59,493 nt of DNA from Candidatus Bathyarchaeota archaeon (GTDB lineage: Archaea > Thermoproteota > Bathyarchaeia > Bathyarchaeales > UBA233): contig JANXEP010000057.1 of assembly GCA_025057795.1 (NCBI GenBank), positions 1-59,493 on the forward strand, written 5' to 3'. This document shows positions 1,188 through 14,470 of the stretch, piece after piece. Numbering within the stretch: position 1 is the first letter of the stretch; the number at the start of each line of letters is the position of its first letter. Both the position numbers and the translations under genes were made by a program. The notes beneath the pieces are model-generated. The model was not told the DNA's origin. It saw only the letters and a list, made by a program, of their open reading frames with translations, and searched no databases.

Positions 1188-2411
1188 TTAACTGTGGTGC
1201 ATTCGCATTTGAACATACTCTTCTATGACTTTATCTGGATCTATACCCGTGCCCTCGAATGCTCTGCCTACAGCCATTCGCAGGATTTTAAATTTGTTTT
1301 CAACGACTACTCTGCCGAAGTTTAGTTTTGCGTATTCTGCTCGTAAATATTCTACATCCATTTTGTTGAAGTATGTGTCTTGGGTTCCGGGCAATATATG
1401 TCCTATGAAGAATTCTTGGATTTTTGGGTCCAGGCGTCCACCGTCTATGAGTTCGCTATGGAGCACTGTTTCAAAGGTTTTGCGCAAGCAGTGAGGCGTG
1501 ACGTATTGCCATTGCGTTAGCCTTGTTCTTTTAGCTGCTTGTTTAACAACTTTCTGGAGTTGCCTCGGGCTCATTATTTTTGAGGAACGCTCTTCTTTTG
1601 GTATTTGGTTGTAGTCTGAAGCGAATAGTGGCTCATTAGGCGCTATTTTGCCATATTTTTCTTCACGTTCGCGGAGATAAAGTCTAAGTGCTTGTGTTGC
1701 TTCATCGCAAATGAAAGTATAATAGGGGATGTTGTTTTTGCAAGCGTTAGGTTCTATCAGCTTCATTTCGGGATATACTGGGATCATAATGTTGCTAACA
1801 CCTCTTTTAAGTTCATCCTCAATGTCTCGGTACAGAACTGCCCTAACGGTTGCATTTCTAAGTCCGCTACTATACAATGTCAGAATCATTGCACGGTCAC
1901 GGAGAGAACAGGTGGAATCAGCCATTTCATATATTTCATGTTTCTTAGGGATGTACTCTGGTCTTTTCCTGTACCTTGAGGACATGTAATGGCTTTCAAT
2001 CTCTAACGCTTTAGCCCCTTTGAAACCGTTTGCCTTGAAAAAACCTTTAAGGAGGTGGAGTATGTTGTTGACGTATCTAATGCTGTGCCTTCCATCATTG
2101 TAGTTATCAGCATAATCTTGAACAATTTCTTCTATTTTCTCTTTAGGCAGTGCTATAAGCTCGTCTGGTGTAAAACCCGTTTCAGAGCAAAGTAAGTAAA
2201 CTTGCCTTAAATATGCCTTTCTTGACGCTTCGCTTCTAGACTTACGCCATAGATGCTTGAGAAGAGCATTAACGCTGACATACTCGCTTCTCCATCCGCA
2301 AACCTTTAAAGATTTAAGAAAGCTGGCAGAATCGTAAAAACAACTCTGTTCTTCGATTGCACTCCTAATGTTAAATGTGTTTGGCGTTTGTATAAACGAC
2401 AATTCAGTCAT
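1188..2411 (-). CDS. Tyrosine recombinase/phage-type integrase
   Basis: The 407-residue protein has an N-terminal SAM-like core-binding region (about residues 20-145) and a C-terminal catalytic domain. Probable catalytic residues are Arg185 (SSGLRNATV), Lys225, His307 and Arg310 (TPHCLRKTF), His338 (IGHILPGT) and Tyr347 (DTYF). It would catalyse site-specific strand exchange for a mobile element. The ATG start overlaps the stop of the upstream gene (2408-2410) as ATGA, so the two are probably translationally coupled and form the end of a leftward operon with the membrane coiled-coil gene. It lies tail to tail with a second, frameshifted recombinase and lacks that protein's long C-terminal tail. 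Confidence 0.9.
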   Translation of the reverse strand: MTELSFIQTPNTFNIRSAIEEQSCFYDSASFLKSLKVCGWRSEYVSVNALLKHLWRKSRSEASRKAYLRQVYLLCSETGFTPDELIALPKEKIEEIVQDYADNYNDGRHSIRYVNNILHLLKGFFKANGFKGAKALEIESHYMSSRYRKRPEYIPKKHEIYEMADSTCSLRDRAMILTLYSSGLRNATVRAVLYRDIEDELKRGVSNIMIPVYPEMKLIEPNACKNNIPYYTFICDEATQALRLYLREREEKYGKIAPNEPLFASDYNQIPKEERSSKIMSPRQLQKVVKQAAKRTRLTQWQYVTPHCLRKTFETVLHSELIDGGRLDPKIQEFFIGHILPGTQDTYFNKMDVEYLRAEYAKLNFGRVVVENKFKILRMAVGRAFEGTGIDPDKVIEEYVQMRMHHS

Positions 2412-3590: not shown

Positions 3591-3624
3591 TTTTCATCAC
3601 TTATTCCGCTCTTTTGTCTTGATT

Positions 3625-3639
3625 GTCTTATAATAAGAC
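3625..3639. promoter_or_regulatory. Perfect 15-bp palindrome, probable operator
   Basis: GTCTTATAATAAGAC is a perfect 7-1-7 inverted repeat between the divergent coiled-coil gene (start 3590) and the RHH gene (start 3718). It overlaps the AT-rich promoter zone of the leftward operon. Its position beside a small ribbon-helix-helix gene suggests a repressor site; this is inference. Confidence 0.5.
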
Positions 3640-3651
3640 AGCGAATAATAT

Positions 3652-3664
3652 AAGCGTTTCGCTT
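3652..3664. promoter_or_regulatory. Second palindrome in the same divergent promoter region
   Basis: AAGCGTTTCGCTT is a 5-3-5 perfect inverted repeat 13 bp from the 15-bp palindrome and 10 bp from the TATA box of the RHH gene. It may be a second operator or an extended site for the same regulator. Confidence 0.35.
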
Positions 3665-3673
3665 AAAACAAGA

Positions 3674-3681
3674 TTTATAAA
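3674..3681 (+). promoter_or_regulatory. TATA box of the RHH gene
   Basis: TTTATAAA lies 44 bp before the ATG at 3718, a typical archaeal spacing that leaves a short leader of about 15-20 nt. Confidence 0.5.
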
Positions 3682-3717
3682 CACTACAAGACGATTCATA
3701 TAATTAGGGACTCCAAT

Positions 3718-3879
3718 ATGGATAAGAAGACGTGGTCAACAAGGTTAGACGGAGAAACTGAAAGAAAAGTGAAAGAACTTATCGAAAAATCTGGATTAAA
3801 GGAAGCAGAAGTGCTACGAAGATTGATTATAATAGGGTTAAAAAAAATTAATGAACCTGCTGATTTATTAAAAGAATAA
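3718..3879 (+). CDS. Ribbon-helix-helix (Arc/CopG-like) DNA-binding protein
   Basis: A 53-residue protein. The N-terminal strand (KTWSTRLDG) is followed by two helices (ETERKVKELIEKSG, then EAEVLRRLIIIGLKK), the standard RHH pattern in which a dimer inserts the strand pair into the major groove. It has its own TATA box and is divergent from the integrase-bearing operon, with palindromic sites between them, so it is a good candidate for an autoregulating element repressor. A membrane protein gene begins 18 bp downstream and may be cotranscribed. Confidence 0.8.
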   Translation: MDKKTWSTRLDGETERKVKELIEKSGLKEAEVLRRLIIIGLKKINEPADLLKE

Positions 3880-3897
3880 GATATAGCTACAATCATA

Positions 3898-4245
3898 ATG
3901 GTGATTTTATTGAAAGATGAAGAACAAAGGCAACGACGGATGCGAGCTAGAAATTTTGTATTATCTACAGGTGCACTACTTATTATCGCAATTATGCTGT
4001 TGATTTTTTATTTGAACGCGGAAACTCTGGCTAGTAAAACATCAACTATTGCAATCATTCTTGGTGGTATGTTGTTAATGAGTGGACTTTACAATTTAAC
4101 TTATCTTTTGCCTCGGATGACAAAAGATGCGGAAGTGCGTGTCAGCATGGAAGCGTTACGTGCTTCATTTTTGATGGTATCAATCGGATTAGTTATAATA
4201 TTTTTAGGAGTTTTAAATTTGCTTAATGTTTTGCCGCACTTTTAA
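3898..4245 (+). CDS. Small three-helix membrane protein
   Basis: Function not recognised. The 115 residues begin with a charged stretch (KDEEQRQRRMRARN) and then show three hydrophobic segments at about 20-40, 48-70 and 88-110, the last ending LGVLNLLNVLPHF. It follows the RHH gene by 18 bp and its 3' end overlaps the convergent radical SAM gene by 23 bp. It could be a membrane partner of the RHH gene, but nothing in the sequence shows a role. Confidence 0.6.
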   Translation: MVILLKDEEQRQRRMRARNFVLSTGALLIIAIMLLIFYLNAETLASKTSTIAIILGGMLLMSGLYNLTYLLPRMTKDAEVRVSMEALRASFLMVSIGLVIIFLGVLNLLNVLPHF

Positions 4246-5293
4246 CGTAGCAAAAGAAACAGCAAGCGTCTGGGGCTGAATAAACATCACTGTTACTGGT
4301 AAGCGTTTTTTGTGCGATGCATCCACCTCTACAGTAAGGAAGTTTTTTACAGCTGTTGCAAGGCTCTTTAATTTTTGTGTAGTCAAATTTCCTTAGTCTT
4401 TGCCACACAGGGGATTCGCGCCAAATTTTAATTAAGGAATTATTTTTTATGTTTCCAGCTATAAATTGGCTGTTTTGTTTAAATCCTGGACATGGAACCA
4501 CTTTTCCGTCAGGACTAATGAGACACCTTGAAATACCAGCGTCGCAAACGGTCTTTGTAATTGATGAGTTGATTAAAAATCGGAAGTCTATTGGACGACC
4601 GACACGAAGAGTTGGATTTTTGTGGTTTAGAGTTAAATATGCGAGTTTTTCTGTTAATTCTATAAACTGTGGAGAAGATAGCTTAAGTAAACCGTTATTT
4701 ATTTCACCACGACCTTGAGGGACGAACCGTAAAATTCCTACTTCGTCTACTCTTAAATCATGGCATAGTCTAAGTAGATCTTCAAGTTCTTTATAATTTA
4801 ACTTCATGGGCACAAAATGTACACCAACCCAAAGCCCTAATGATTTTGTAATCTTTATTGCTCTTATAACATTACTATAGCTACCAGTAACTTTCGTAAT
4901 AGCTTCATGTGTGCCCTTGCGAAAACCGTGCAGACCGAAAATCATCTTTTTCAATCCAACAGCACGCAAATTCTTTGCAATCGTGATGTTTAAACCAGCG
5001 ATTTTTCCAGACGCATTTAACATGTTCCCAGAAGTGTATAAAATCGGCTCAATATTGCGTGTTTTGGCATAGCTAATAATATTTATCAAATCTTGATGTA
5101 ACAACGGTTCTCCACCCGAAATCTCTAAGGTTTCACACCCGAGAATCGAAAGCTCGTCTATTACTCGCTTTATTTCATCTAAAGAAAGCTCATCTTTGGA
5201 ATTAATGGTGCAATCTCCTGAACAATGTAGGCAGTTTAAAGGACATTTTGCAGTTATTTCGAGGCACACTTCATTAAGCTTGAATGTTTTCAA
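4223..5293 (-). CDS. Radical SAM protein with SPASM domain
   Basis: The N-terminus carries the 4Fe-4S cysteine motif CPLNCLHC (CX3CX2C) that binds S-adenosylmethionine, followed by the GGEP-type motif SGGEPLLH near residue 60. The C-terminal third is a SPASM-type auxiliary cluster domain: CDAGISRCLISPDGKVVPC, then CNSCKKLPYCRGGC and a final cysteine cluster (DACCFFC). Family members mature peptides (PqqE, AlbA, anSME types) or modify other substrates by radical chemistry. It is the last gene of a four-gene leftward operon, 7 bp after the membrane dUTPase-fold gene. No precursor peptide gene was recognised nearby, so the substrate is unknown. It is not viperin-like, because viperins lack SPASM. 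Confidence 0.88.
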   Translation of the reverse strand: MKTFKLNEVCLEITAKCPLNCLHCSGDCTINSKDELSLDEIKRVIDELSILGCETLEISGGEPLLHQDLINIISYAKTRNIEPILYTSGNMLNASGKIAGLNITIAKNLRAVGLKKMIFGLHGFRKGTHEAITKVTGSYSNVIRAIKITKSLGLWVGVHFVPMKLNYKELEDLLRLCHDLRVDEVGILRFVPQGRGEINNGLLKLSSPQFIELTEKLAYLTLNHKNPTLRVGRPIDFRFLINSSITKTVCDAGISRCLISPDGKVVPCPGFKQNSQFIAGNIKNNSLIKIWRESPVWQRLRKFDYTKIKEPCNSCKKLPYCRGGCIAQKTLTSNSDVYSAPDACCFFCYVKSAAKH

Positions 5294-5300
5294 TATTTAA

Positions 5301-6263
5301 TCACCATCGCCAATGCGTAAGTACCCATGCAATCACAGCAACGACTACGCTGACAATTCCAGTCAACACAACGGGAAAAAGCAATTCTAACCGTTTTACT
5401 CTTTCGTCAAGATTACGAACAGATACGCTGGTTCCTCTCAAACCAAACATGGTTTCTATAGGTATCGTCTCCATTCCATGCCATGTGCTCTTTTCAACTT
5501 TAGCCTGTTCAGTCAATTTGTTAAACATTATCATGAACACACGTTCGTTGAACCTTAAAGGAATGTCGTTTGGACCGGAATTGAACACTGCAAACATCAA
5601 ACGACCATAGAACCCAGGATCAACATGAAAACCAGAAATATTTACTAAGCCCTTTTGTTTAAAAGTTAACCTTATCGAAATAAACCCCATAAGATCGGGA
5701 GGAACAAAAATATACTCATGCGCCATTAAAATGCCAAACTCCCCAGGTTCTATCGATACAACGCCATCAGCGCCCATGACAGTCAGCTTTTTAGGAACCT
5801 TTTCGGTTGTAACATATACGTCTTCACCAAGTCTAAGGTCGTAATTTGCTCCCCTAAGACAATTATAGTCTGGATTATCTATAAATATTGGGAGCACTTT
5901 GCAGTCCTCATATATTTTAGGCTTACCTTCGTTTTTCCCGTATTTTAAGAACTTCTCAATTTCTTGAGCCATGTTATCTTCCTTCTGATTTAGGAAAAAT
6001 TCTTCGACGATTTTTCTGATTGCAGTTCTACGTATTTTAAGGACTTTATTATTCAACCCTATTTTCCTAAAATATTCACTCAATTTCTTCTCTTTTTCTT
6101 TCCCATTTTTTTCTTTTACGTACTCATATAAGAGATCTTTTAAAGCCCTAATCTCTGTCTCAACATCCATACCCAATTTCTCTCGCTGAAGTAGCCACGT
6201 GTAAATTAACTCCTCACCAATTATGATCCTTTTAACTATGTCCTTTTTAGACAGTATACCCAT
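5301..6263 (-). CDS. Membrane-anchored dUTPase/dCTP-deaminase-fold protein
   Basis: With the chosen start the protein has 320 residues: a helical, charged N-terminal region (1-110), a dUTPase/dCTP-deaminase-type beta domain (about 120-250) and a C-terminal membrane segment (about 296-316) ending THWRW. Domain marks are YDLRLGE (141-147), PGEFGILM, and HVDPGFYGRLMFAVFNSG. The glutamate that catalyses deamination in Dcd (VLEFYNSG) is Ala225 here, and the RSS phosphate-binding motif is replaced by SIRLT, so deaminase activity is doubtful. An open frame extends to an ATG at 6344, but ATG 6263 has GGAGATG 8 nt upstream and removes a 50-bp overlap with the preceding gene. Confidence 0.75.
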   Translation of the reverse strand: MGILSKKDIVKRIIIGEELIYTWLLQREKLGMDVETEIRALKDLLYEYVKEKNGKEKEKKLSEYFRKIGLNNKVLKIRRTAIRKIVEEFFLNQKEDNMAQEIEKFLKYGKNEGKPKIYEDCKVLPIFIDNPDYNCLRGANYDLRLGEDVYVTTEKVPKKLTVMGADGVVSIEPGEFGILMAHEYIFVPPDLMGFISIRLTFKQKGLVNISGFHVDPGFYGRLMFAVFNSGPNDIPLRFNERVFMIMFNKLTEQAKVEKSTWHGMETIPIETMFGLRGTSVSVRNLDERVKRLELLFPVVLTGIVSVVVAVIAWVLTHWRW

Positions 6264-6294
6264 ATAATTCACATCTCCTTCAACCAAGTGATAG

Positions 6295-6930
6295 TCACCG
6301 AGAGTTTCTGAATTTATAGTATTCATAAAAATATAATTTGCCATTTCTAGAAATAGACCACTCCAAGTAAACGCTGTTAGGCAGCATTTGTATATAGCGT
6401 TCGATAACTTGAATATTTTCGGGTTCTAAAATTTGCATTTCCTTGTTGTTAATTCGATATGCCCTTTCTTTTTCCCATTTTCCAGAACGGAAAATCCATC
6501 TTTCATAATTTGACACCACGCCCTCGAGTAGTGGAGGGGCATCCCCAAAAATTGCTTCAATGACTGTGTGATCATTCTCTTTTAAGATTGTGCCGGAGCA
6601 TCTTGCATCCACAGTATGTTGAATTATAATTTTGCAGTAGGGTTTGTATTGAGCGTATTTTTCGAGCACCCTCTTAACAATTTCTTCTTTATCAGTTACG
6701 TGAAGCCCCCCGTGTTTCGCCACTCTATCCAGTCCATAAGGCATTGACACCCTAATAGTGACTCCAACTCTATCACCCTCAAGTTTTGGAACATCAATAT
6801 ACTCAATTTTCTCAAGTATGTATTTTTTCACATCCACTGGTTTGTCACGCATGATATCAATAACAACATAAGGAGGACACGGAAAGTTAATTTTCTTAAG
6901 CTGGTTTAAGCCCCATATCTTTCTATACAT
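6295..6930 (-). CDS. Stand-alone PEP-synthase-type ATP-grasp (PPDK N-terminal-like) protein
   Basis: The 211 residues follow the nucleotide-binding domain of PEP synthase/PPDK from its first strand (WGLNQLKKINFPCPPYVVID matches GGKNANLGEMLNAGIPVPIG in the PEP synthase at 43746) through VTIRVSMPYGLDR, IIIQHTVDARCSGTIL, VIEAIFGD and LEWSISRNGKLYFYEYYK. The phosphohistidine and PEP-binding domains are absent. Such a domain would bind ATP and might transfer phosphate to another protein or small substrate. It lies 17 bp after the wHTH gene and 31 bp before the dUTPase-fold gene in the same operon. Fold assignment is by motif order; function is unknown. Confidence 0.65.
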   Translation of the reverse strand: MYRKIWGLNQLKKINFPCPPYVVIDIMRDKPVDVKKYILEKIEYIDVPKLEGDRVGVTIRVSMPYGLDRVAKHGGLHVTDKEEIVKRVLEKYAQYKPYCKIIIQHTVDARCSGTILKENDHTVIEAIFGDAPPLLEGVVSNYERWIFRSGKWEKERAYRINNKEMQILEPENIQVIERYIQMLPNSVYLEWSISRNGKLYFYEYYKFRNSR

Positions 6931-6947
6931 TGTATGACTCTCTCTGC

Positions 6948-7322
6948 TTATCTACTCGCCTTATTAATGATATACGTCCATCTTCCATTTTCTTTAACTC
7001 TATGTAGTTCTCCACGCTTTACAAGTGCAGTTAAGGTTCCCGATAGCGTCCCCTTCGAAAAGTAAAGACCGTTAATTTCCAGAGCCTTCTTGATATCAGC
7101 CATTGATCGTGGCTCTGAAGCCCATTCCGTTGACATAAGCACCCTTAGAGCCTCGGCACACCCTTTTACTAAAGGTAACTCGGGATGACGTTGTCGTTCT
7201 GTAAGCTCATTAGGCGACCCTTTCGCCAAAAGTTCCTGCAATGCGCATTCGAGTTCCTGCAGTGACCCTGCTTCAACAATTATTTCGCCCCCCTTCCATC
7301 TGCCTTTCCAAATGAACTTCAT
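6948..7322 (-). CDS. Winged-helix DNA-binding protein, probable operon regulator
   Basis: The 124 residues have a short beta N-terminus (MKFIWKGRWKGGEIIVEAG), a helix, a linker, and a C-terminal winged helix (about 60-122: CAEALRVLMSTEWASEPRSM, FSKGTLSGTLTALVKRGEL, then wing WTYII). ATG 7322 is preferred over a TTG at 7331. As first gene of the four-gene operon, with a 17-bp palindrome directly over its promoter, it probably autoregulates. Confidence 0.75.
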   Translation of the reverse strand: MKFIWKGRWKGGEIIVEAGSLQELECALQELLAKGSPNELTERQRHPELPLVKGCAEALRVLMSTEWASEPRSMADIKKALEINGLYFSKGTLSGTLTALVKRGELHRVKENGRWTYIINKASR

Positions 7323-7340
7323 ATCTATCAATAGACTGTG

Positions 7341-7357
7341 TATAGACTTTGTCTATA
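7341..7357. promoter_or_regulatory. 17-bp palindromic operator over leftward promoter
   Basis: TATAGACTTTGTCTATA is a perfect 7-3-7 inverted repeat that overlaps the leftward TATA-like element (ATTTATAGAC) of the wHTH operon. A shorter related palindrome, TCTATTGATAGA, lies between it and the start codon. Binding here would block TBP or RNA polymerase; the ligand is inferred to be the wHTH protein. Confidence 0.6.
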
Positions 7358-7425
7358 AATACTCACCGACTTTCGGTTTTATCTTGGGTCGAATATCCGA
7401 AGTTTGAGGTAAAGCTTAAGAAGAG

Positions 7426-7441
7426 TTCGAAAATGTTCGAA
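7426..7441. repeat. Paired TTCGAA sites upstream of the nuclease gene pair
   Basis: TTCGAAAATGTTCGAA contains two TTCGAA palindromes 10 bp apart (one helical turn), just upstream of the AT-rich element AATAATTTA and 54 bp before the ATG at 7495. The spacing suggests a cooperative operator for the rightward gene pair; unproven. Confidence 0.35.
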
Positions 7442-7494
7442 ATAATTTAGAAATGTTGAAACTTTTGACTGCAATATGTAAAGTTTGACCTGCC

Positions 7495-7692
7495 ATGAAA
7501 ATAAAAACTAAATCAGGTGTGTCAATATCGTTTGTTCAAGAAGGTTCGTCCACGATAATATTATTCGACACCTTTGTACGTGGAGTTGAGTTGACCAAGG
7601 AAGAGTCACTCAGGATAGGCGCAGTGCTTGCTTCAGATAGTAATGATACTGGCGGCAAAAAGCCAGGTAAAGTAACTCAAAAGCGAGGATAA
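7495..7692 (+). CDS. Small beta-rich protein of unknown function
   Basis: The 65 residues predict three or four strands (MKIKTKSGVSISFVQEG, SSTIILFDTFVRGVEL), one helix (TKEESLRIGAVLA) and a basic tail. The beta part resembles in style the N-terminal regions of the wHTH proteins at 6948 and 16480, which also begin with a paired-strand segment, but here no winged helix follows. It sits 5 bp before the PD-(D/E)XK/HhH gene, so the two should be cotranscribed and may work together. Confidence 0.6.
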   Translation: MKIKTKSGVSISFVQEGSSTIILFDTFVRGVELTKEESLRIGAVLASDSNDTGGKKPGKVTQKRG

Positions 7693-7697
7693 TTTTC

Positions 7698-8930
7698 ATG
7701 TATTCCCCAGAATGGGAAATAGAGGAGCTGATAGCTAAGTATCCAGAACTTTTGGGAGTTAATGCAAACGAGGTGACATCGATTGAAAGGCAAAAACATC
7801 TCAAAAAATCCGGTAAATGTATGGATCTCTTAATTAGGATGCGCGATTTCTACATAATAGCGGAGATTAAGGCAACTTTTGTAGATGATGTTTTGGTCAT
7901 CACAAATCAACTACTACCTTATAAAACTACTTTGGCAGAAGAATTTCACATCCCCGAAGAAAAAATTCAATGTTTTCTTGTCTCTTCACATGGTTTCTCC
8001 AATGAGGTTAAAGAGTTTTGCCAAAAATTGAATGTAGCAACGAGAATCATCGATAAAGAAGTAATATCTAGACTATCAAATGCTAGGGATAAGCTGAACT
8101 TATCTGAGGAAAAAAGTGAAGTTGCAAAGGTATTTTTGAAAATAAGCAATGCCGCTCCCATTATGGCTCATGAAGTTTATACAGAAAGTGATGGAAAGTT
8201 AAGGTCAAACAAGGACATGTGGTTTTGGTTATTTTACAGCGTCATGGACAGACGTGCTAATGCAGCTACTTTCGTAAAAGCCAAAGAGGCATTAGAAAAG
8301 GAGCATATGTTCGCTCCCTATAAAATCGTCAGTTCAATAAAGGAAAAAGGCGAAAAATCAGTCTTAAATAAAATCGCTAAAATTTTAGAGCGTAACAATT
8401 TCCCACTTCTAAGTGATAGCATAATGGGGAAATGGTCATTTCCGAAAAGCATAATCGATGCGGCAAAATTCATTAGCCACTTCAACTACGACTTTATGAA
8501 TGCCTATGAAAATTATGTTAAAACTTGCCAAGGAGACTTGAAGAAGGCTAGAGATAGCATATGGAATGATCTCCAAAAGCATATATATGGTGTTGGGCCC
8601 AGAATCGCAAGTCAGATAATTCGCGGCTTAGTCCTTAAAGGACCATGGAGGTTCCCTCTCGATGACAACAAATTCTTAGAGAAATGCCGTTATAACGTTT
8701 GGATGGCTGGAGAAACGCGTCTTTGCTTAATCAAGGACGAAAGCGAATACTGCGAACAATTAGGAAGTCTTGCAGATAAATATTTGAATGGAAACAGAGG
8801 CATAATAGCACATGTACTATGGTTTATCCGCAAGAGGTATTGCAATCGCCCACCAAAGTGCCACGAATGTCCATTAAGAAGTTACTGTTCACGCACTACT
8901 CATGAACTAAAACACAAAGAGCATGATTAA
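7698..8930 (+). CDS. PD-(D/E)XK nuclease domain fused to EndoIII-like HhH/[4Fe-4S] domain
   Basis: Residues 1-125 look like a NucS/restriction-endonuclease-like domain: WEIEELIAKYPELLG, then Asp43 (CMDLLIRM) and the E-x-K pair Glu56/Lys58 (IIAEIKAT). After a helical middle (150-290), residues 297-311 form a helix-hairpin-helix (YGVGPRIASQIIRGL) followed by an acidic FPLDDN segment in the place of the catalytic Asp of EndoIII-type glycosylases; the lysine of bifunctional enzymes is absent. The C-terminus has four cysteines (382, 388, 391, 397; CX5CX2CX5C) close to the EndoIII iron-sulfur loop (CX6CX2CX5C). The likely role is recognition of altered DNA bases plus cleavage, for repair or for restriction of modified foreign DNA. 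Domain calls are by motif; function is inference. Confidence 0.7.
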   Translation: MYSPEWEIEELIAKYPELLGVNANEVTSIERQKHLKKSGKCMDLLIRMRDFYIIAEIKATFVDDVLVITNQLLPYKTTLAEEFHIPEEKIQCFLVSSHGFSNEVKEFCQKLNVATRIIDKEVISRLSNARDKLNLSEEKSEVAKVFLKISNAAPIMAHEVYTESDGKLRSNKDMWFWLFYSVMDRRANAATFVKAKEALEKEHMFAPYKIVSSIKEKGEKSVLNKIAKILERNNFPLLSDSIMGKWSFPKSIIDAAKFISHFNYDFMNAYENYVKTCQGDLKKARDSIWNDLQKHIYGVGPRIASQIIRGLVLKGPWRFPLDDNKFLEKCRYNVWMAGETRLCLIKDESEYCEQLGSLADKYLNGNRGIIAHVLWFIRKRYCNRPPKCHECPLRSYCSRTTHELKHKEHD

Positions 8931-8948
8931 AATTTAATTTCCTCATTT

Positions 8949-9916
8949 TCAAATGCCAAGTTTCGGTATGCATGCAAGGTACGCTCTTCTTAGTTCTTTT
9001 TTGTCTATGTGGTGGTATATGTCTATTGCTTCGCCTCTTTTGTCTCCCCTAAGCTCTTTCACGTATTCCCTTGGCATTCCATTTCTCAATAGCCAAGTCG
9101 TAAACCAATGCCGACAACAATGTGGCGTAAAATGATCCTCCATCCTCTTACTTTTAGAATTATGTAAACCAACTTTTTCCGCATGCTTCGTAACAGCATC
9201 ATAAACGCCATGCCTCTTAATCCTCTCGCCCCTCTCATTAACAAATAAGGCGGTGTATTCTGGCGAGACTGGGTAGTTTTTGCGCGCGTTCAGCCACCGC
9301 AACAGAACCCGGGCGCATTCGTCATCAAAGAAAACCGTCAAATTACTTCTTTTTGGGTGAGGCTTCAGCTGTATGCTATGTTCTTCCCAGTTGATATCCT
9401 CAAGATCTATGTTGATAAGCTCTTTCCGCCGTATTCCAGTTTTAGCCAAAAGAGTCACAATCGCCTTATCCCTTGGATCAAGAATAGAATCAATCAGCAT
9501 CTTCATCTGCTCAACCGAAATAAGCTTCCTAGGCGAATCATCAACATGATGCCCCACCTTATACTGGCGAATGTACCTCTTCCTAAAAGGAAAACAATAT
9601 TCCTATCAACTACACCCTCATAAACCAAGAAATCGTAAAAACTTGAAAGCGCAGAAAAATAATTCTCCAACGTCTTTACTGAATAGCCCTTTTCAAAAAC
9701 CAAGTGTTCCAACAACCTTTTTAAAACATATTTATCCAAACTCACAAAAGAAAAACTGTTACGCTTCAAAAAAGCATACGTTATCTGTAAAATTGATTTA
9801 TAGCTTCTAATGCTTTCCTCAGAAAAATTCCGCAATTTGCAATCAGAAATAAACTCATTAATCAACTCGTCATCGCTCAATTGTTTACTCTGCATCAGGT
9901 TTAGCCGAGTCTTCAT
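8949..9916 (-). pseudogene. XerA-type tyrosine recombinase with one frameshift
   Basis: Two overlapping frames encode one recombinase. The N-terminal core-binding half starts at ATG 9916, with GGAGGTG just upstream and an ATGA overlap with the preceding gene. The C-terminal half has Arg (AKTGIRRKELINI), HCCRHWFTTW and the Tyr of DIYHHID. Adding one T to the minus-strand TTTT run (9591-9594) rejoins them as NIVFPFRKRYIRQYKVGHHV. No domain is missing, so this is a recent lesion, a miscall, or programmed frameshifting. The gene stands next to tRNA-Ser, where such an enzyme could have acted. It converges with the nuclease-HhH gene (18 bp apart). Confidence 0.8.
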
Positions 9917-10434
9917 CCTGTCCACCTCCAACCACGAACAGAAGACTTCACAAGCCCCCATCTCTCCAAGCTCTCTAACTGCCTAGAAATCGCTCTAATA
10001 GTTTCATGCTCTGTGGAATCTACGCCTAGATGTGCCAGAATGTCCTCGCTGGAGATAATTCCTTTACTTTTGAGAAGGGTTATCAGATCTCTTTCAAAAT
10101 CTCTAACGCCCTCATAAACCTCTTCGGCAAAAGGTTTAACCCTATACGCCCTTAACTCCTCTTCAAGCCTATCAACAGCCCTCTCTAAAAGCCTACACTT
10201 CTTGGAAAGCTCATTAATCTGCTGCCTTAACTCCTCATTCTCTTTTATCAGATTTTCCCGCGACTTGTAAGTAGGCTCCGATTCTTGCCTAAGAGAATTC
10301 TCAACATACTCTATAACAAACTTAGAAATACTGACTCCCAACTCCTCAGCCCGCTTCTCCCACTTCTCCTTCATTTCAAGTGATGGTAGATAGACGTAGA
10401 TTGCTCTTTCCTTTATTGTCTCAGTTTTTCCCAT
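9913..10434 (-). CDS. RHH - coiled coil - winged helix DNA-binding protein
   Basis: The 173 residues run from an N-terminal ribbon-helix-helix-like segment (ERAIYVYLPSLEMKEKWEKR, then SISKFVIEYVENSL), through a coiled coil (about 60-105), to a C-terminal winged helix (about 115-172) ending SSVRGWRWTG. Its stop overlaps the recombinase ATG by 4 bp, so it is coupled to that gene and is likely an accessory or regulatory factor for the recombinase. It starts 55 bp from the 3' end of tRNA-Ser. Confidence 0.7.
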   Translation of the reverse strand: MGKTETIKERAIYVYLPSLEMKEKWEKRAEELGVSISKFVIEYVENSLRQESEPTYKSRENLIKENEELRQQINELSKKCRLLERAVDRLEEELRAYRVKPFAEEVYEGVRDFERDLITLLKSKGIISSEDILAHLGVDSTEHETIRAISRQLESLERWGLVKSSVRGWRWTG

Positions 10435-10488: not shown

Positions 10489-10619
10489 TGGCGCCGGGGA
10501 GGGGATTTGAACCCCTGCGAGCCCGTAGGCCCACTGGCTTGCTTGTCTTTCCTCTTAGCCCCAATTCTGTAGGCTGCAAGATCTCGAGGCCAGCGCGTTG
10601 ACCGCTCCGCCACCCCGGC
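10489..10619 (-). tRNA. tRNA-Ser(CGA) with 43-nt intron
   Basis: The minus strand gives a class II tRNA. The acceptor stem GCCGGGG pairs with CCCCGGC, followed by discriminator G and an encoded CCA (10489-10491). The anticodon stem CTGGC pairs with GCCAG, the loop carries CGA at 10584-10586, and a long variable arm (TGGGCCTACGGGCTCGC) marks serine. An intron at 10540-10582 interrupts the usual 37/38 position and would be removed by the archaeal splicing endonuclease. The T arm GGGGTTCAAATCCCC is intact. Its 3' end faces the accessory region and the recombinase gene, the classical arrangement of an integration site. Confidence 0.93.
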
Positions 10620-11759: not shown

Positions 11760-12356
11760 GTGTTGATATTGGAAAACGAAGTTATAATCGGTATAGACCT
11801 TGCTGGAGCCCCAAAAAATCCTACAGGCTTGGCTTTATGGCGAAACAAGATTGTGGAAACTTGCCTAATTTACAAAAACAAAGAAATTTTGGAAAAAATT
11901 ATTCTCTACAAACCAGCAATTGTGGCAATAGATGCCCCCTTGAAATTTCCAAAAAAGGGCTTATTCAGAAAAGCAGACAAGGAGATGATAAAGAGAGGCT
12001 ACCGCGTTTTTCCACCGGGTCTGCCAGCTATGAAAACGCTTACCCTTCGCGCAATTAAGCTAAATAAGTTAATAGTAGAAAAGGGAATAAATACAATAGA
12101 AGTGCATCCCACATCAACCCGTAAGGCCCTAAACATGCCACCGAAAGACTTCATACAAATCCAAAAAATTCTAGAGAGCATGGGTATAGAGGGCAGCCTT
12201 AAAGAGCGCAAGCTGACAGCCCACGAGATTGATGCAATAACAGCTGCGTTAACAGCATACTTCCACATGAAAGGGAAAACTGAAGCATTAGGAGGGGAGG
12301 GAGAGGGATACATTATCGTGCCTAAAAAGCAGGATTGGAGAGGCCTAGCTTTATGA
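11760..12356 (+). CDS. DUF429 family protein (RNase H-like fold)
   Basis: The 198 residues start with IIGIDLAGAPKNPTGLAL, an RNase-H-fold first strand carrying the conserved Asp, followed by AIDAPLKFP, RVFPPGLPAMKTLTLRA, IEVHPTSTRKAL and HEIDAITAALTA, the usual DUF429 series of acidic motifs. The family is a predicted nuclease of unknown substrate. The gene overlaps the DP1 start by 4 bp (ATGA at 12353-12356), so it is translationally coupled to the replicative polymerase subunit. The GTG start gives almost no leader downstream of the TATA box. Confidence 0.75.
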   Translation: MLILENEVIIGIDLAGAPKNPTGLALWRNKIVETCLIYKNKEILEKIILYKPAIVAIDAPLKFPKKGLFRKADKEMIKRGYRVFPPGLPAMKTLTLRAIKLNKLIVEKGINTIEVHPTSTRKALNMPPKDFIQIQKILESMGIEGSLKERKLTAHEIDAITAALTAYFHMKGKTEALGGEGEGYIIVPKKQDWRGLAL

Positions 12357-13918
12357 GTTATAGTGAAAAACTTCAAAGAGCGGTGGAATTGACAATTTCG
12401 GCAGGCTACCAACTTAGCAAAGAAGCCTTTGACTTCTTAAATGAAGCAGCGACAACGGAGGATCCTGTAGAGATCATCAATAAGGTATTAGAAAAAGTGG
12501 AAAACTTAAGGGATAAACCGTTATTTATTGAAAGAAGCCTTCTTGAAGGACTTGTAAAAAAGCCAGAGGTTCTCGAAGAAATTTTCCCCAAACCAAAAGT
12601 GGAGCAGCTTGCCAAACCGCAAGAGCAACAACAACCACAGATGTTGGAGGGGAAGAAGCTTTTCAGGCCTTATGCAAAAGAGGTTGAGCCGAACATCAGT
12701 GTAATTGAAAATTTTGGCGGCAATCTTAGCTCCAGCGGGACTATGGAAGATTATCTTAAATATTTCCAAGATAGGTTTAAACGTATTGAAAAGCTTTTGA
12801 GGCATAGAATAGACGTAAGAAGTGCAACATCAGTTATTGACGCCTTAAAGGCTCCGCCGAATACAAAGCTTAAAATAATTGGTATGATTGCCGAAAAAAG
12901 GGAGCAAAAACAGAAAGTATTCCTCACAATTGAAGACTTAACTGCAAGTGTAACCGTGCTTGTTCCCCAGAATGCCCCCTTAGATCTTTTAAACAAGGCA
13001 AAAATGCTCCTACCTGATCAAGTCATTTGTGCAAGCGTTACAAAGACAAGGAGTAACCTGTTGGTTGCTGAAGACATAGTTTTGCCCGACGTCGCCCAAA
13101 GGACTCAAAATAGGGCTTCCGTTCCAGTTTATGCCGTGCTTACATCAGACATGCATGTAGGAAGCATAAAGTTTCAGAAAGAAGCATTTAAACGTTTTAT
13201 TTTGTGGCTTAATGGCAGATACGGAAATGAAGAGATGCGGGAAATAGCAAGTCAAGTTAAATACGTTCTTATAGCCGGAGACATCGTTGACGGAATAGGT
13301 GTTTACCCGAACCAAGTTAAGGAGTTGTCAGTGAAGGACATTTACGGCCAGTACAAGTTAGCCGCGAAGATCATTGAACAAATCCCAGAATATATGGAGG
13401 TAATAATTATACCTGGAAACCATGACGCCCCACGGAAAGCCTTGCCCCAGCCACCGATTTCAGATGCTTTTCTTGAAATGCTGCAAGAATCAAGGAAAGT
13501 TCACTCTTTGGGAAACCCTTGCCTCTTAAGTCTACACAAAGTAGAAATCTTAATGTATCATGGACGCAGCCTAGACGACATTATATCTACAGTTCCGGGA
13601 ATTAATTACACTCAACCGGAGAAGGCTATGACGTTGCTTCTGCAAAGTCGACACCTTGCACCTGTTTACGGCGAGAAGACCCCCCTGGCCCCTGAAAGCA
13701 GAGACTTTTTAGTAATCGAACGCGTTCCGGACATTTTCCACGCAGGGCATATACATACCCTTGGTCACACCAATTACAAAGGGGTGCTTGTAATAAATTC
13801 AGGGTGCTGGCAAGCGCAAACAGAATACATGAAAAGGTTAGGGGTTGTCCCAATGCCCGGTTTAGTCCCAGTTGTTAATCTCCAAACGTTAGATATTAAG
13901 GTTCTTTCTTTTACTTGA
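12353..13918 (+). CDS. polB: DNA polymerase II (family D) small subunit DP1
   Basis: The 521-residue protein is the exonuclease subunit of archaeal PolD. It has a helical N-terminal domain (1-85), a proline/glutamine linker, an OB fold (about 150-235) and a C-terminal calcineurin-type phosphoesterase with SDMHVGS, AGDIVDG, GNHDAPR and AGHIHTLGH motifs that bind two metals for 3'-5' proofreading. ATG 12353 overlaps the DUF429 stop. The 3' end overlaps convergent DUF99 by 30 bp. It sits about 2 kb from the probable origin and Orc1/Cdc6, an arrangement like that of Pyrococcus. Confidence 0.95.
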   Translation: MSYSEKLQRAVELTISAGYQLSKEAFDFLNEAATTEDPVEIINKVLEKVENLRDKPLFIERSLLEGLVKKPEVLEEIFPKPKVEQLAKPQEQQQPQMLEGKKLFRPYAKEVEPNISVIENFGGNLSSSGTMEDYLKYFQDRFKRIEKLLRHRIDVRSATSVIDALKAPPNTKLKIIGMIAEKREQKQKVFLTIEDLTASVTVLVPQNAPLDLLNKAKMLLPDQVICASVTKTRSNLLVAEDIVLPDVAQRTQNRASVPVYAVLTSDMHVGSIKFQKEAFKRFILWLNGRYGNEEMREIASQVKYVLIAGDIVDGIGVYPNQVKELSVKDIYGQYKLAAKIIEQIPEYMEVIIIPGNHDAPRKALPQPPISDAFLEMLQESRKVHSLGNPCLLSLHKVEILMYHGRSLDDIISTVPGINYTQPEKAMTLLLQSRHLAPVYGEKTPLAPESRDFLVIERVPDIFHAGHIHTLGHTNYKGVLVINSGCWQAQTEYMKRLGVVPMPGLVPVVNLQTLDIKVLSFT

Positions 13919-14470
13919 TAATCCTCGTGCGATCAAACGTGCAACTCTAATTGGTTCGGGCACCCTCCCAGAGACTGCCATGGCCTTTATGATATCTTTG
14001 GCCCAATGTAAGTCGCCGCCTACTATTTCAATGTAAAGTGGGAATTCACCAGCGGACATTTTCACTTTGTAGATAATGCCTAATTTTTGGAATACTTCCC
14101 AACGGATTTGCCAGTCTTTGAAATGATGAAGGAGCGCTTGCTTCACAGCTTTATTGTTAGGCTTTTTCCGAGAGATAATAATTAAAGGTTTTCGGAATTC
14201 ATCAAAGAGAATCGTCGGATCGACAACATTAAACCCGGCAAAGGAGACTCCGGCAAGCATAACGGCATCAAATTCCCACCCATTTAAAACTTCTGCAACT
14301 CGTGCCGTTGCGTCTAAGCCATCAACTTTCACCTTTGTAAACCTTATGTCCTCAATGGTTAATCCCTTAAAAAGCACCGCTGCAAGAAGGGCTTTTTTGG
14401 TGACTTCTTTTTTGAAACTTCCATCATCAATCCCTACTATTTGCATTTTTTGAAAGGCATCTTGGCTCAT
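13889..14470 (-). CDS. DUF99 family protein (EndoV-related fold)
   Basis: The 193 residues contain IVGIDDGSFKKE at the N-terminus, VKVDGLDATARVAEVLNGW, AVMLAGVSFAGFNVVDPT, and the C-terminal FPLYIEIVGG and RVPEPIRVARLIARGL marks of the UPF0215/DUF99 family, which has an endonuclease V-like fold and no firmly assigned function. It overlaps the end of the Orc1/Cdc6 gene by 44 bp with the ATG at 14470, or 20 bp with ATG 14446, so it is cotranscribed with the initiator gene. Confidence 0.8.
   Translation of the reverse strand: MSQDAFQKMQIVGIDDGSFKKEVTKKALLAAVLFKGLTIEDIRFTKVKVDGLDATARVAEVLNGWEFDAVMLAGVSFAGFNVVDPTILFDEFRKPLIIISRKKPNNKAVKQALLHHFKDWQIRWEVFQKLGIIYKVKMSAGEFPLYIEIVGGDLHWAKDIIKAMAVSGRVPEPIRVARLIARGLSSKRKNLNI

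Follow-up and report, generated by a model that had tools for sequence, protein, structure and literature searches.

A cassette of four protein families—an ATP-grasp-like protein, a membrane-tethered protein of the DCD/dUTPase fold (DCD-TM), a radical SAM/SPASM enzyme and a nuclease—is encoded on a contig of a Candidatus Bathyarchaeota archaeon (JANXEP010000057.1, assembly GCA_025057795.1) and recurs in other archaeal genomes. The analysed stretch of 59,493 nucleotides, referred to here as the window, carries four minus-strand genes running from 7331 down to 4223 that encode a winged helix-turn-helix (wHTH)-like protein, the ATP-grasp-like protein, DCD-TM and the radical SAM/SPASM enzyme, separated by 17, 31 and 7 bp. 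These genes, their coordinates and their gaps had been described from the sequence alone (the original prediction) and are confirmed by the open reading frames (ORFs). That prediction took the four genes as the unit; we find that the ATP-grasp, DCD-TM and radical SAM genes are indeed kept together elsewhere, whereas the wHTH gene is not found in the other loci compared and a nuclease partner, encoded in the window divergently from and upstream of the wHTH gene, had been overlooked. The conserved unit is ATP-grasp, DCD-TM, radical SAM/SPASM and nuclease, with the wHTH protein outside it as far as seen. The conserved active-site residues of the nuclease, the mobile setting, the patchy occurrence and the nearby genes acting on nucleotides lead us to a tentative explanation that we hold to be possible rather than probable. 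The four families would form a DNA-conflict (defence-type) cassette that moves laterally among archaea and works at the level of nucleotides or bases, and the nuclease would be its effector.

The cassette is kept together in different archaea

Scanning 84,980 species genomes for two short motifs of the ATP-grasp alignment located four loci; with so short a pattern this count is a lower bound. In a Methanoperedens species (L001) and in the uncultured archaeon LFW-280 (L002), the ATP-grasp, DCD-TM and radical SAM/SPASM genes lie on one strand and are followed by a convergent nuclease gene, the product of which (490 and 482 residues, respectively) is 48–49% identical to that of the window. Methanoperedens nitroreducens (G003) has all four families on two contigs that are not joined: one (L003) has a Thymidylate_kin/dNK-type gene beside the ATP-grasp gene and ends inside DCD-TM, and the other carries a DCD-TM C terminus together with the nuclease and radical SAM genes. 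A metagenome-assembled genome (MAG) labelled WOR-3 (L004) encodes a nucleoside diphosphate (NDP) kinase, the ATP-grasp protein, the radical SAM/SPASM enzyme and a CYTH protein, with DCD-TM on the other strand. Whether other genomes keep the genes together, the check that the original prediction had called for, is answered in its favour by these four cases, and the kinase and CYTH genes of L003 and L004 fit the nucleotide theme that it had put forward. Locus tags of a Jordarchaeaceae MAG (QW279_04430, nuclease; QW279_04440, ATP-grasp; QW279_04445, DCD) suggest that these three genes are adjacent there as well. A ribbon-helix-helix-like ORF, under the Pfam cut-off, precedes the nuclease in L001 and L086. 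Named hosts include Jordarchaeaceae, Njordarchaeota and Methanoperedens, and the nuclease also occurs in an Elusimicrobiota MAG. Linkage of the radical SAM gene rests on the loci read, namely the window, L001, L002, L004 and L086.

Protein searches returned 93 ATP-grasp, 546 DCD and 149 nuclease homologues; counts given below for the DCD and nuclease families are from the matches listed (120 of 546 and 120 of 149, respectively). Linkage was approximated by identical length of the longest contigs. Two proteins may share a length without sharing a contig, and shifted-length controls were therefore made. Among the matches listed, 33 distinct lengths are common to ATP-grasp and DCD, 33 to ATP-grasp and nuclease, 37 to DCD and nuclease (one being the window) and 18 to all three, compared with 0–4 under six small length offsets. 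When contigs are restricted to those of 5 kb or more, 35 of 40 ATP-grasp homologues match a listed DCD or nuclease homologue in length. The distance matrices of partners are correlated, both for ATP-grasp and nuclease (r = 0.40 over 30 of the 33 lengths; 0 of 5000 permutations) and for ATP-grasp and DCD (r = 0.53 over 17 of 33; 1 of 5000), with an ambiguous length (5928), two short contigs and the DCD pairs without a nuclease partner left out. Shared species history alone could be the source of part of this correlation.

If the genes were loose neighbours, collected on mobile elements of archaea and sharing no function, the varying gene order and extra genes would be accommodated, as would the nuclease, which diverges from the operon in the window, converges on it in L001 and L002 and is not found in the MAG of L004. 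This account is already disfavoured and we regard it as very improbable: contig sharing lies far above the controls, partner distances are correlated, and the collinear trio keeps its short gaps in different archaea.

Distribution and mobile setting

The distribution of the cassette is sporadic. Among 392 Halobacteriota sampled around one genome (G001), six have an ATP-grasp match, G001 itself and five with a fused form described below; a full-length nuclease is present in G001 only, six further matches spanning the N-terminal NucS-like part alone. In the phylum of L004, 1 of 147 genomes has the ATP-grasp gene, that of L004 itself. The recombinase-flanked setting of the original prediction holds, with a tyrosine recombinase gene on either side of the cassette in the window (Table 1), and the GC content around the cassette (3600–8950) is 0.375 compared with 0.434 over 10435–59493. 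The ATP-grasp family gave no match in phages and the nuclease none in plasmids. A single DCD sequence gave no match in IMG/VR, and an alignment query gave two DCD-TM relatives.

The nuclease combines NucS-type and endonuclease III-like features

Five residues of the NucS-type PD-(D/E)XK site (D43, E56, K58, Q71 and Y75) are invariant in 32 aligned nuclease members (alignment A5). The D-ExK pattern is present in 111 of the 120 homologues listed, and a four-cysteine loop (C-x5-C-x2-C-x5-C) resembling that of endonuclease III (EndoIII) likewise in 111 of 120. NucS_C matches 11 of the 32 members (best 1.4e-7) and not the window protein itself. On the basis of a GVGxR motif and the cysteine loop we infer a helix-hairpin-helix (HhH) domain; Pfam returned no HhH-GPD match for the family. 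When the family was compared by hhalign with three EndoIII sequences, obtained from nine loci tried, only the 19-column cysteine loop aligned (P = 0.0034; three unrelated profiles gave 0.1–0.22), and the position that we take to be that of the EndoIII glycosylase lysine holds an arginine, as judged by eye. A search of PDB sequences with the nuclease alignment (hmmsearch) gave no match at 0.01. The protein resembles NucS/EndoMS in its PD-(D/E)XK residues and EndoIII in its four-cysteine loop, and differs from both in joining the two parts in one protein of 400–500 residues, with a conserved central region that has no Pfam name.

DCD-TM is a membrane-anchored member of the DCD/dUTPase fold

DCD-TM consists of a helical N-terminal region, a DCD/dUTPase fold and a single C-terminal membrane helix. 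It matches DCD (PF22769) at 3.3e-12 and the solved dCTP deaminase 9ln0 at 5.7e-14. We place its start at the ATG at 6263, the start shared by 17 of the 27 remaining sequences in alignment A2; the longest ORF reaches 6344. The membrane helix is predicted by hydropathy, with a Kyte–Doolittle peak of 2.77 in the window protein, and 116 of the 120 homologues listed reach 1.6 within their last 60 residues.

At the position that we read as that of the catalytic glutamate of dCTP deaminase, the 116 readable sequences of the 120 listed have alanine (65), serine (39), threonine (11) or glycine (1) and never glutamate, while the aspartate before PG is retained in 113 of the 116. In motif II, 107 of the 120 have R...K and 9 have K...K, presumably a departure from the usual DCD motif. 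The original prediction of a membrane-tethered DCD fold that lost its deaminase glutamate is borne out as a description, but the loss is not special to this family, because none of the 27 readable loci among 29 more distant DCD-type loci keeps the glutamate either (20 have cysteine). Relative to dCTP deaminase and dUTPase, DCD-TM shares the core fold and the DPG motif, lacks the deaminase glutamate and adds the N-terminal helical region and the C-terminal membrane helix.

Anti-phage dCTP deaminases, to which the original prediction had pointed, are of the AvcD/DcdV type, zinc enzymes of the cytidine deaminase (CDA) fold. The likeness extends to a name derived from dCTP and to action on nucleotides. 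DCD-TM matched only DCD PF22769, with the dUTPase/DCD fold, no deaminase glutamate and no match in PADLOC, and we rejected a CDA-type identity on these grounds; the analogy does not hold.

Distant archaeal DCD relatives (L076–L081 and L083), left out of the family counts, lie in other neighbourhoods with no cassette partners in the stretches read. In L079 and L080, DCD-like and deoxynucleoside-kinase-like genes adjoin an adenylosuccinate-synthetase-like gene (names assigned by eye), with a lyase-like gene also in L079; these neighbourhoods may bear on unusual purine nucleotides.

Bacterial relatives of DCD-TM lie near nucleotide enzymes

A tblastn search found DCD-TM on nine of 72,556 plasmids, and a bacterial query returned the same nine. 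All nine proteins have the GFHVDPG motif and eight reach a C-terminal hydropathy of at least 1.6, the ninth having 1.45. Neighbours were read 5–6 kb to each side from annotation, which is incomplete in this collection. Genes for uracil-DNA glycosylase (UDG) are near DCD-TM on five of the nine (L021, L022, L072, L074 and L075; Pfam-confirmed in both of those scanned, L022 and L074), MazG-type genes on four (L021, L022, L024 and L072; Pfam-confirmed in L022, the sole one scanned), a 5-hydroxymethyldeoxyuridine (5-hmdU) DNA kinase domain (HMUDK_hel, by Pfam) on two (L020 and L024) and thymidylate synthase on one (L024). As a control, two 45-kb stretches taken from two of these plasmids contain none of those nucleotide enzymes among 60 annotated features. 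Such islands, on rhizobial and other plasmids, resemble the archaeal cassette in placing a DCD-TM relative among nucleotide-acting enzymes in accessory DNA; the cassette has ATP-grasp, radical SAM/SPASM and a NucS-like nuclease in place of thymidylate synthase, 5-hmdU kinase, MazG and UDG. As a separate observation, an IMG/VR contig (L013:5758-8762) has a DCD-TM relative following genes for Prok-E2, a JAB-like protein and ThiF E1, the JAB match being just under the cut-off. A 2026 study, in the part of its text consulted, counts thymidylate synthase and 5-hydroxymethyluracil kinase among the domains newly validated in phage defence and gives MazG, MazG-C and dUTPase domains as predicted, none of them yet validated (PMC13092281).

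These relatives bear on two further explanations. In the first, the cassette serves DNA repair and sanitation of the nucleotide pool: DCD-TM would remove a wrong or damaged deoxynucleoside triphosphate, the nuclease would cut at the incorporated base, and the ATP-grasp and radical SAM proteins would recycle or repair. NucS cuts mismatched DNA and HhH/iron–sulphur (FeS) proteins locate damaged bases, both of which fit this account, as do the sanitation-type UDG and MazG genes found together near DCD-TM in L021, L022 and L072, and the NDP kinase and CYTH genes of L004. It covers the same parts almost as well as the DNA-conflict reading. The sporadic presence (the full-length nuclease in 1 of 392 Halobacteriota), the recombinases on both sides and the membrane anchor argue against a repair role, for which no precedent with a radical SAM/SPASM enzyme of this kind is known to us, and we consider it rather doubtful.

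In the second, a true modification–restriction system, the ATP-grasp and radical SAM proteins would covalently modify bases of the host DNA, and DNA that lacks this modification (or bears a foreign one) would be cleaved by the nuclease. The conserved active-site residues of the nuclease are consistent with this, as are the 5-hmdU DNA kinase (L020 and L024) and thymidylate synthase (L024) near bacterial kin of DCD-TM. Against it stand the lack of a recognized DNA-modifying family in the cassette and the preference of SPASM enzymes for peptides in most studied cases; moreover, we know of no modified base of this kind in these hosts. We judge modification–restriction to be quite unlikely.

The ATP-grasp protein is probably PPDK-derived and lacks the phosphohistidine domain

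Invariant positions in 29 aligned ATP-grasp members include R60, HGGLH (73–77), Q104, D108, E125, E190-W191 and E203. Pfam yields nothing for the window protein at E ≤ 1, PPDK_N (PF01326) matches none of the 29 members at E ≤ 0.5, and a search of PDB sequences with the family alignment (A1, hmmsearch) gave nothing meaningful (best E 0.11). Indirect evidence for its origin comes from five Halobacteriota homologues (L007–L011, 312–338 residues) that run on into a PEP-utilizers-type domain, detected as PF00391 in both of those scanned (3.7e-20 and 1.8e-19); all five contain GGRTSHAS, which we take to be the signature of that domain. Aligned by hhalign with PPDK_N proteins of four genomes, the family is collinear, with P = 0.26 (not significant) for the ATP-grasp domain alone and 6.6e-16 only with the fused domain included.

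At 211 residues and ending after a YEY motif, the cassette protein itself has no phosphohistidine (PEP-utilizers) domain, so that it is not expected to carry out PEP-synthase chemistry in cis. It shares with PPDK and PEP synthase the collinear motifs IRVS, QHTVDA-CSG and LEWS, and differs in its size (211 residues against the 328 positions of the PPDK_N model) and in lacking the phosphohistidine domain. The original prediction had called it a stand-alone PPDK-type ATP-grasp protein, in agreement with the continuation seen in the five homologues, and on sequence comparison PPDK-type descent is likely, not proven. The fused form in L007–L011 appears to be an uncharacterized dikinase-like enzyme, and adjoins CoaE-like genes (by eye) in two cases.

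The radical SAM/SPASM enzyme is not a viperin

The radical SAM protein matches Radical_SAM (PF04055, 2.5e-19) and SPASM (PF13186, 2.1e-11) in Pfam, and its CxxxCxxC motif reads CPLNCLHC. Of 79 NCBIfam matches 25 are listed, and among these the SPASM-domain model TIGR04085 alone exceeds its cut-off, with no equivalog doing so; the best matches are to heme d1, mycofactocin and heme b/PQQ families. The original prediction had drawn an analogy with viperins, which lack a SPASM domain. The enzyme shares with prokaryotic viperin (pVip) the radical SAM core, with a generic match to pVip models (1.7e-15), and departs from it in its SPASM domain, its other partners and its better scores with maturase families (NirJ2, 1.2e-43, the two scores coming from different libraries). 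The SPASM domain and the better scores of SPASM maturase/heme families led us to reject viperin identity.

SPASM enzymes mostly act on peptides, and for this reason we keep a further explanation, maturation of a peptide or cofactor in the manner of ribosomally synthesized and post-translationally modified peptides, with the SPASM enzyme and the ATP-grasp protein at work and DCD-TM and the nuclease as passengers. The heme d1, mycofactocin and heme b/PQQ matches agree with it, and in L001, L002 and L086 a conserved ORF of 57 residues with a hydrophobic stretch adjoins the radical SAM gene. That ORF was not found in the window, no equivalog among the NCBIfam matches listed passes its cut-off, and the ATP-grasp protein appears PPDK-like rather than of the peptide-ligase type. 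Maturation also leaves the tight link to the nuclease and DCD-TM unexplained, and we see it as distinctly improbable.

A proposed mechanism of the cassette

Under the DNA-conflict reading, the ATP-grasp and radical SAM/SPASM proteins would produce a chemical mark by which self is told from foreign; the mark may be a modified base or nucleotide, or else a small signal. DCD-TM, acting as a membrane-anchored sensor or gate, would bind a deoxynucleotide that is probably modified and that it may also hydrolyse, and the NucS/HhH–FeS protein would be the effector, cutting DNA with or without the mark. Directly upstream of the L002 cassette lie genes for a ThsB-type TIR protein (2.7e-23) and a SLATT membrane protein (2.2e-28; L002:2710-4107). 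A bolder version strikes us as unlikely: a new kind of archaeal immune system in which the ATP-grasp protein, having lost its phosphohistidine domain, and the radical SAM protein make a new modified nucleotide or base that DCD-TM reads, and the nuclease is the executor, with DCD-TM as the component common to the bacterial nucleotide-modification loci and the ubiquitin-like (E1/E2/JAB) locus.

Several observations weigh against a role in DNA conflict. Clear defence neighbours are present at L002 only among the loci read, with ordinary genes beside the others, and PADLOC-DB 2.0.0 has no match for DCD-TM, the ATP-grasp protein or the nuclease. No DNA-modifying enzyme, methyltransferase or DNA kinase was recognized in the window cassette with Pfam and NCBIfam, and peptides are the usual substrates of SPASM enzymes. 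The nuclease has no match in the MAG of L004, which is possibly incomplete, and neither it nor the ATP-grasp protein has a relative in IMG/VR at the settings used. The fused ATP-grasp relatives (L007–L011) occupy other neighbourhoods, with no DCD-TM, radical SAM or nuclease gene within the 3.6 kb read. Finally, the bacterial islands and the archaeal cassette have the DCD-TM family alone in common, and neither UDG, MazG, 5-hmdU kinase nor thymidylate synthase lies beside DCD-TM in L023 and L073.

The association itself appears to be undescribed, as the original prediction had supposed. Beyond the lack of a PADLOC match for the three proteins, we found no paper on a combination of dCTP deaminase, radical SAM and ATP-grasp proteins in archaea in a literature search that covered mostly titles and the starts of abstracts. 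In the portions consulted of their main text, surveys of archaeal defence hold nothing on this cassette, radical SAM appearing solely in a viperin reference. Within the reach of these searches, the association of genes is new.

Gene layout and flanks of the window

The features of the cassette and its borders are collected in Table 1. The wHTH-like protein scores best in Pfam with Penicillinase_R (0.03) and MarR_2 (0.091), both under the curated cut-offs, and its gene has no tblastn match (E ≤ 0.1) in the other cassette loci compared; it is a probable local regulator. The palindrome beside its start, which the original prediction had read as an operator, is present but not beyond chance by itself, because 2000 Markov simulations of this intergenic sequence yield at least as many inverted repeats of its grade in 16% of runs; we have accordingly dropped it as proof of an operator. 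The ORF of 65 residues before the nuclease has no Pfam match, and tblastn against the other cassette loci gave only chance-level matches.

Table 1 Features of the cassette and its borders in the window
Feature	Position	Strand	Basis or remark
wHTH-like protein, 127 aa	6948-7331	-	ORF; Pfam matches below curated cut-offs only
ATP-grasp-like protein, 211 aa	6295-6930	-	ORF; alignment of 29 members
DCD-TM, 320 aa	5301-6263	-	PF22769 match; start chosen from alignment A2
Radical SAM/SPASM enzyme, 356 aa	4223-5293	-	Pfam; CxxxCxxC and SPASM cysteines
NucS-type PD-(D/E)XK nuclease partner, 410 aa	7698-8930	+	Conserved residues; homologues in other loci
Tyrosine recombinase, left of cassette	1188-2411	-	Phage_integrase 1.1e-10
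XerA-like tyrosine recombinase, right of cassette	8949-9961	-	Two overlapping ORFs, 9503-9961 and 8949-9557
Imperfect palindrome beside wHTH start	7334-7364 (core TATAGAC-TTT-GTCTATA, 7341-7357)	no strand	Possible operator
65-aa ORF, ending 5 bp before nuclease	7495-7692	+	May not be a gene

The XerA-like recombinase gene is split and is possibly inactive, unless the split reflects a sequencing slip. Just past it, a tRNA (10492-10619, minus strand; Rfam RF00005, 48.9 bits; missed by ARAGORN) has a long insertion within its anticodon region and could be an integration site. Farther on, a protein of the Endonuclease dU family (13889-14470, minus strand; PF01949, 4.1e-48) adjoins a DNA polymerase small-subunit gene (DNA_pol_E_B, 12335-13918), which marks the window as archaeal and which we take to encode the PolD small subunit. 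On the other side, a small possible ribbon-helix-helix protein (3718-3879, plus strand) is assigned by eye, with no Pfam match, and a hydrophobic protein (3898-4245, plus strand) is convergent with the radical SAM gene; neither ORF has relatives in the other cassette loci compared. Thymidylate synthase and 5-hmdU DNA kinase gave no match among the 19 ORFs scanned, all in the first 14.5 kb of the window.

Implications

Outside CRISPR and restriction, archaeal defence has been little charted; in the part consulted of a 2026 survey of 7747 archaeal genomes, nearly a third have no such further defence (PMC12988326). The cassette described here recurs in different archaea (Methanoperedens, Jordarchaeaceae and the window's own host), and its proteins are all small enough for expression. 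It brings the chemistry of a radical SAM enzyme and an ATP-grasp protein together with a DNA nuclease and a nucleotide-fold protein bound to the membrane. If its role is in defence, it would represent a new way to mark or sense nucleotides; if it is in repair instead, a membrane-anchored dUTPase-fold protein would be tied to DNA cutting.

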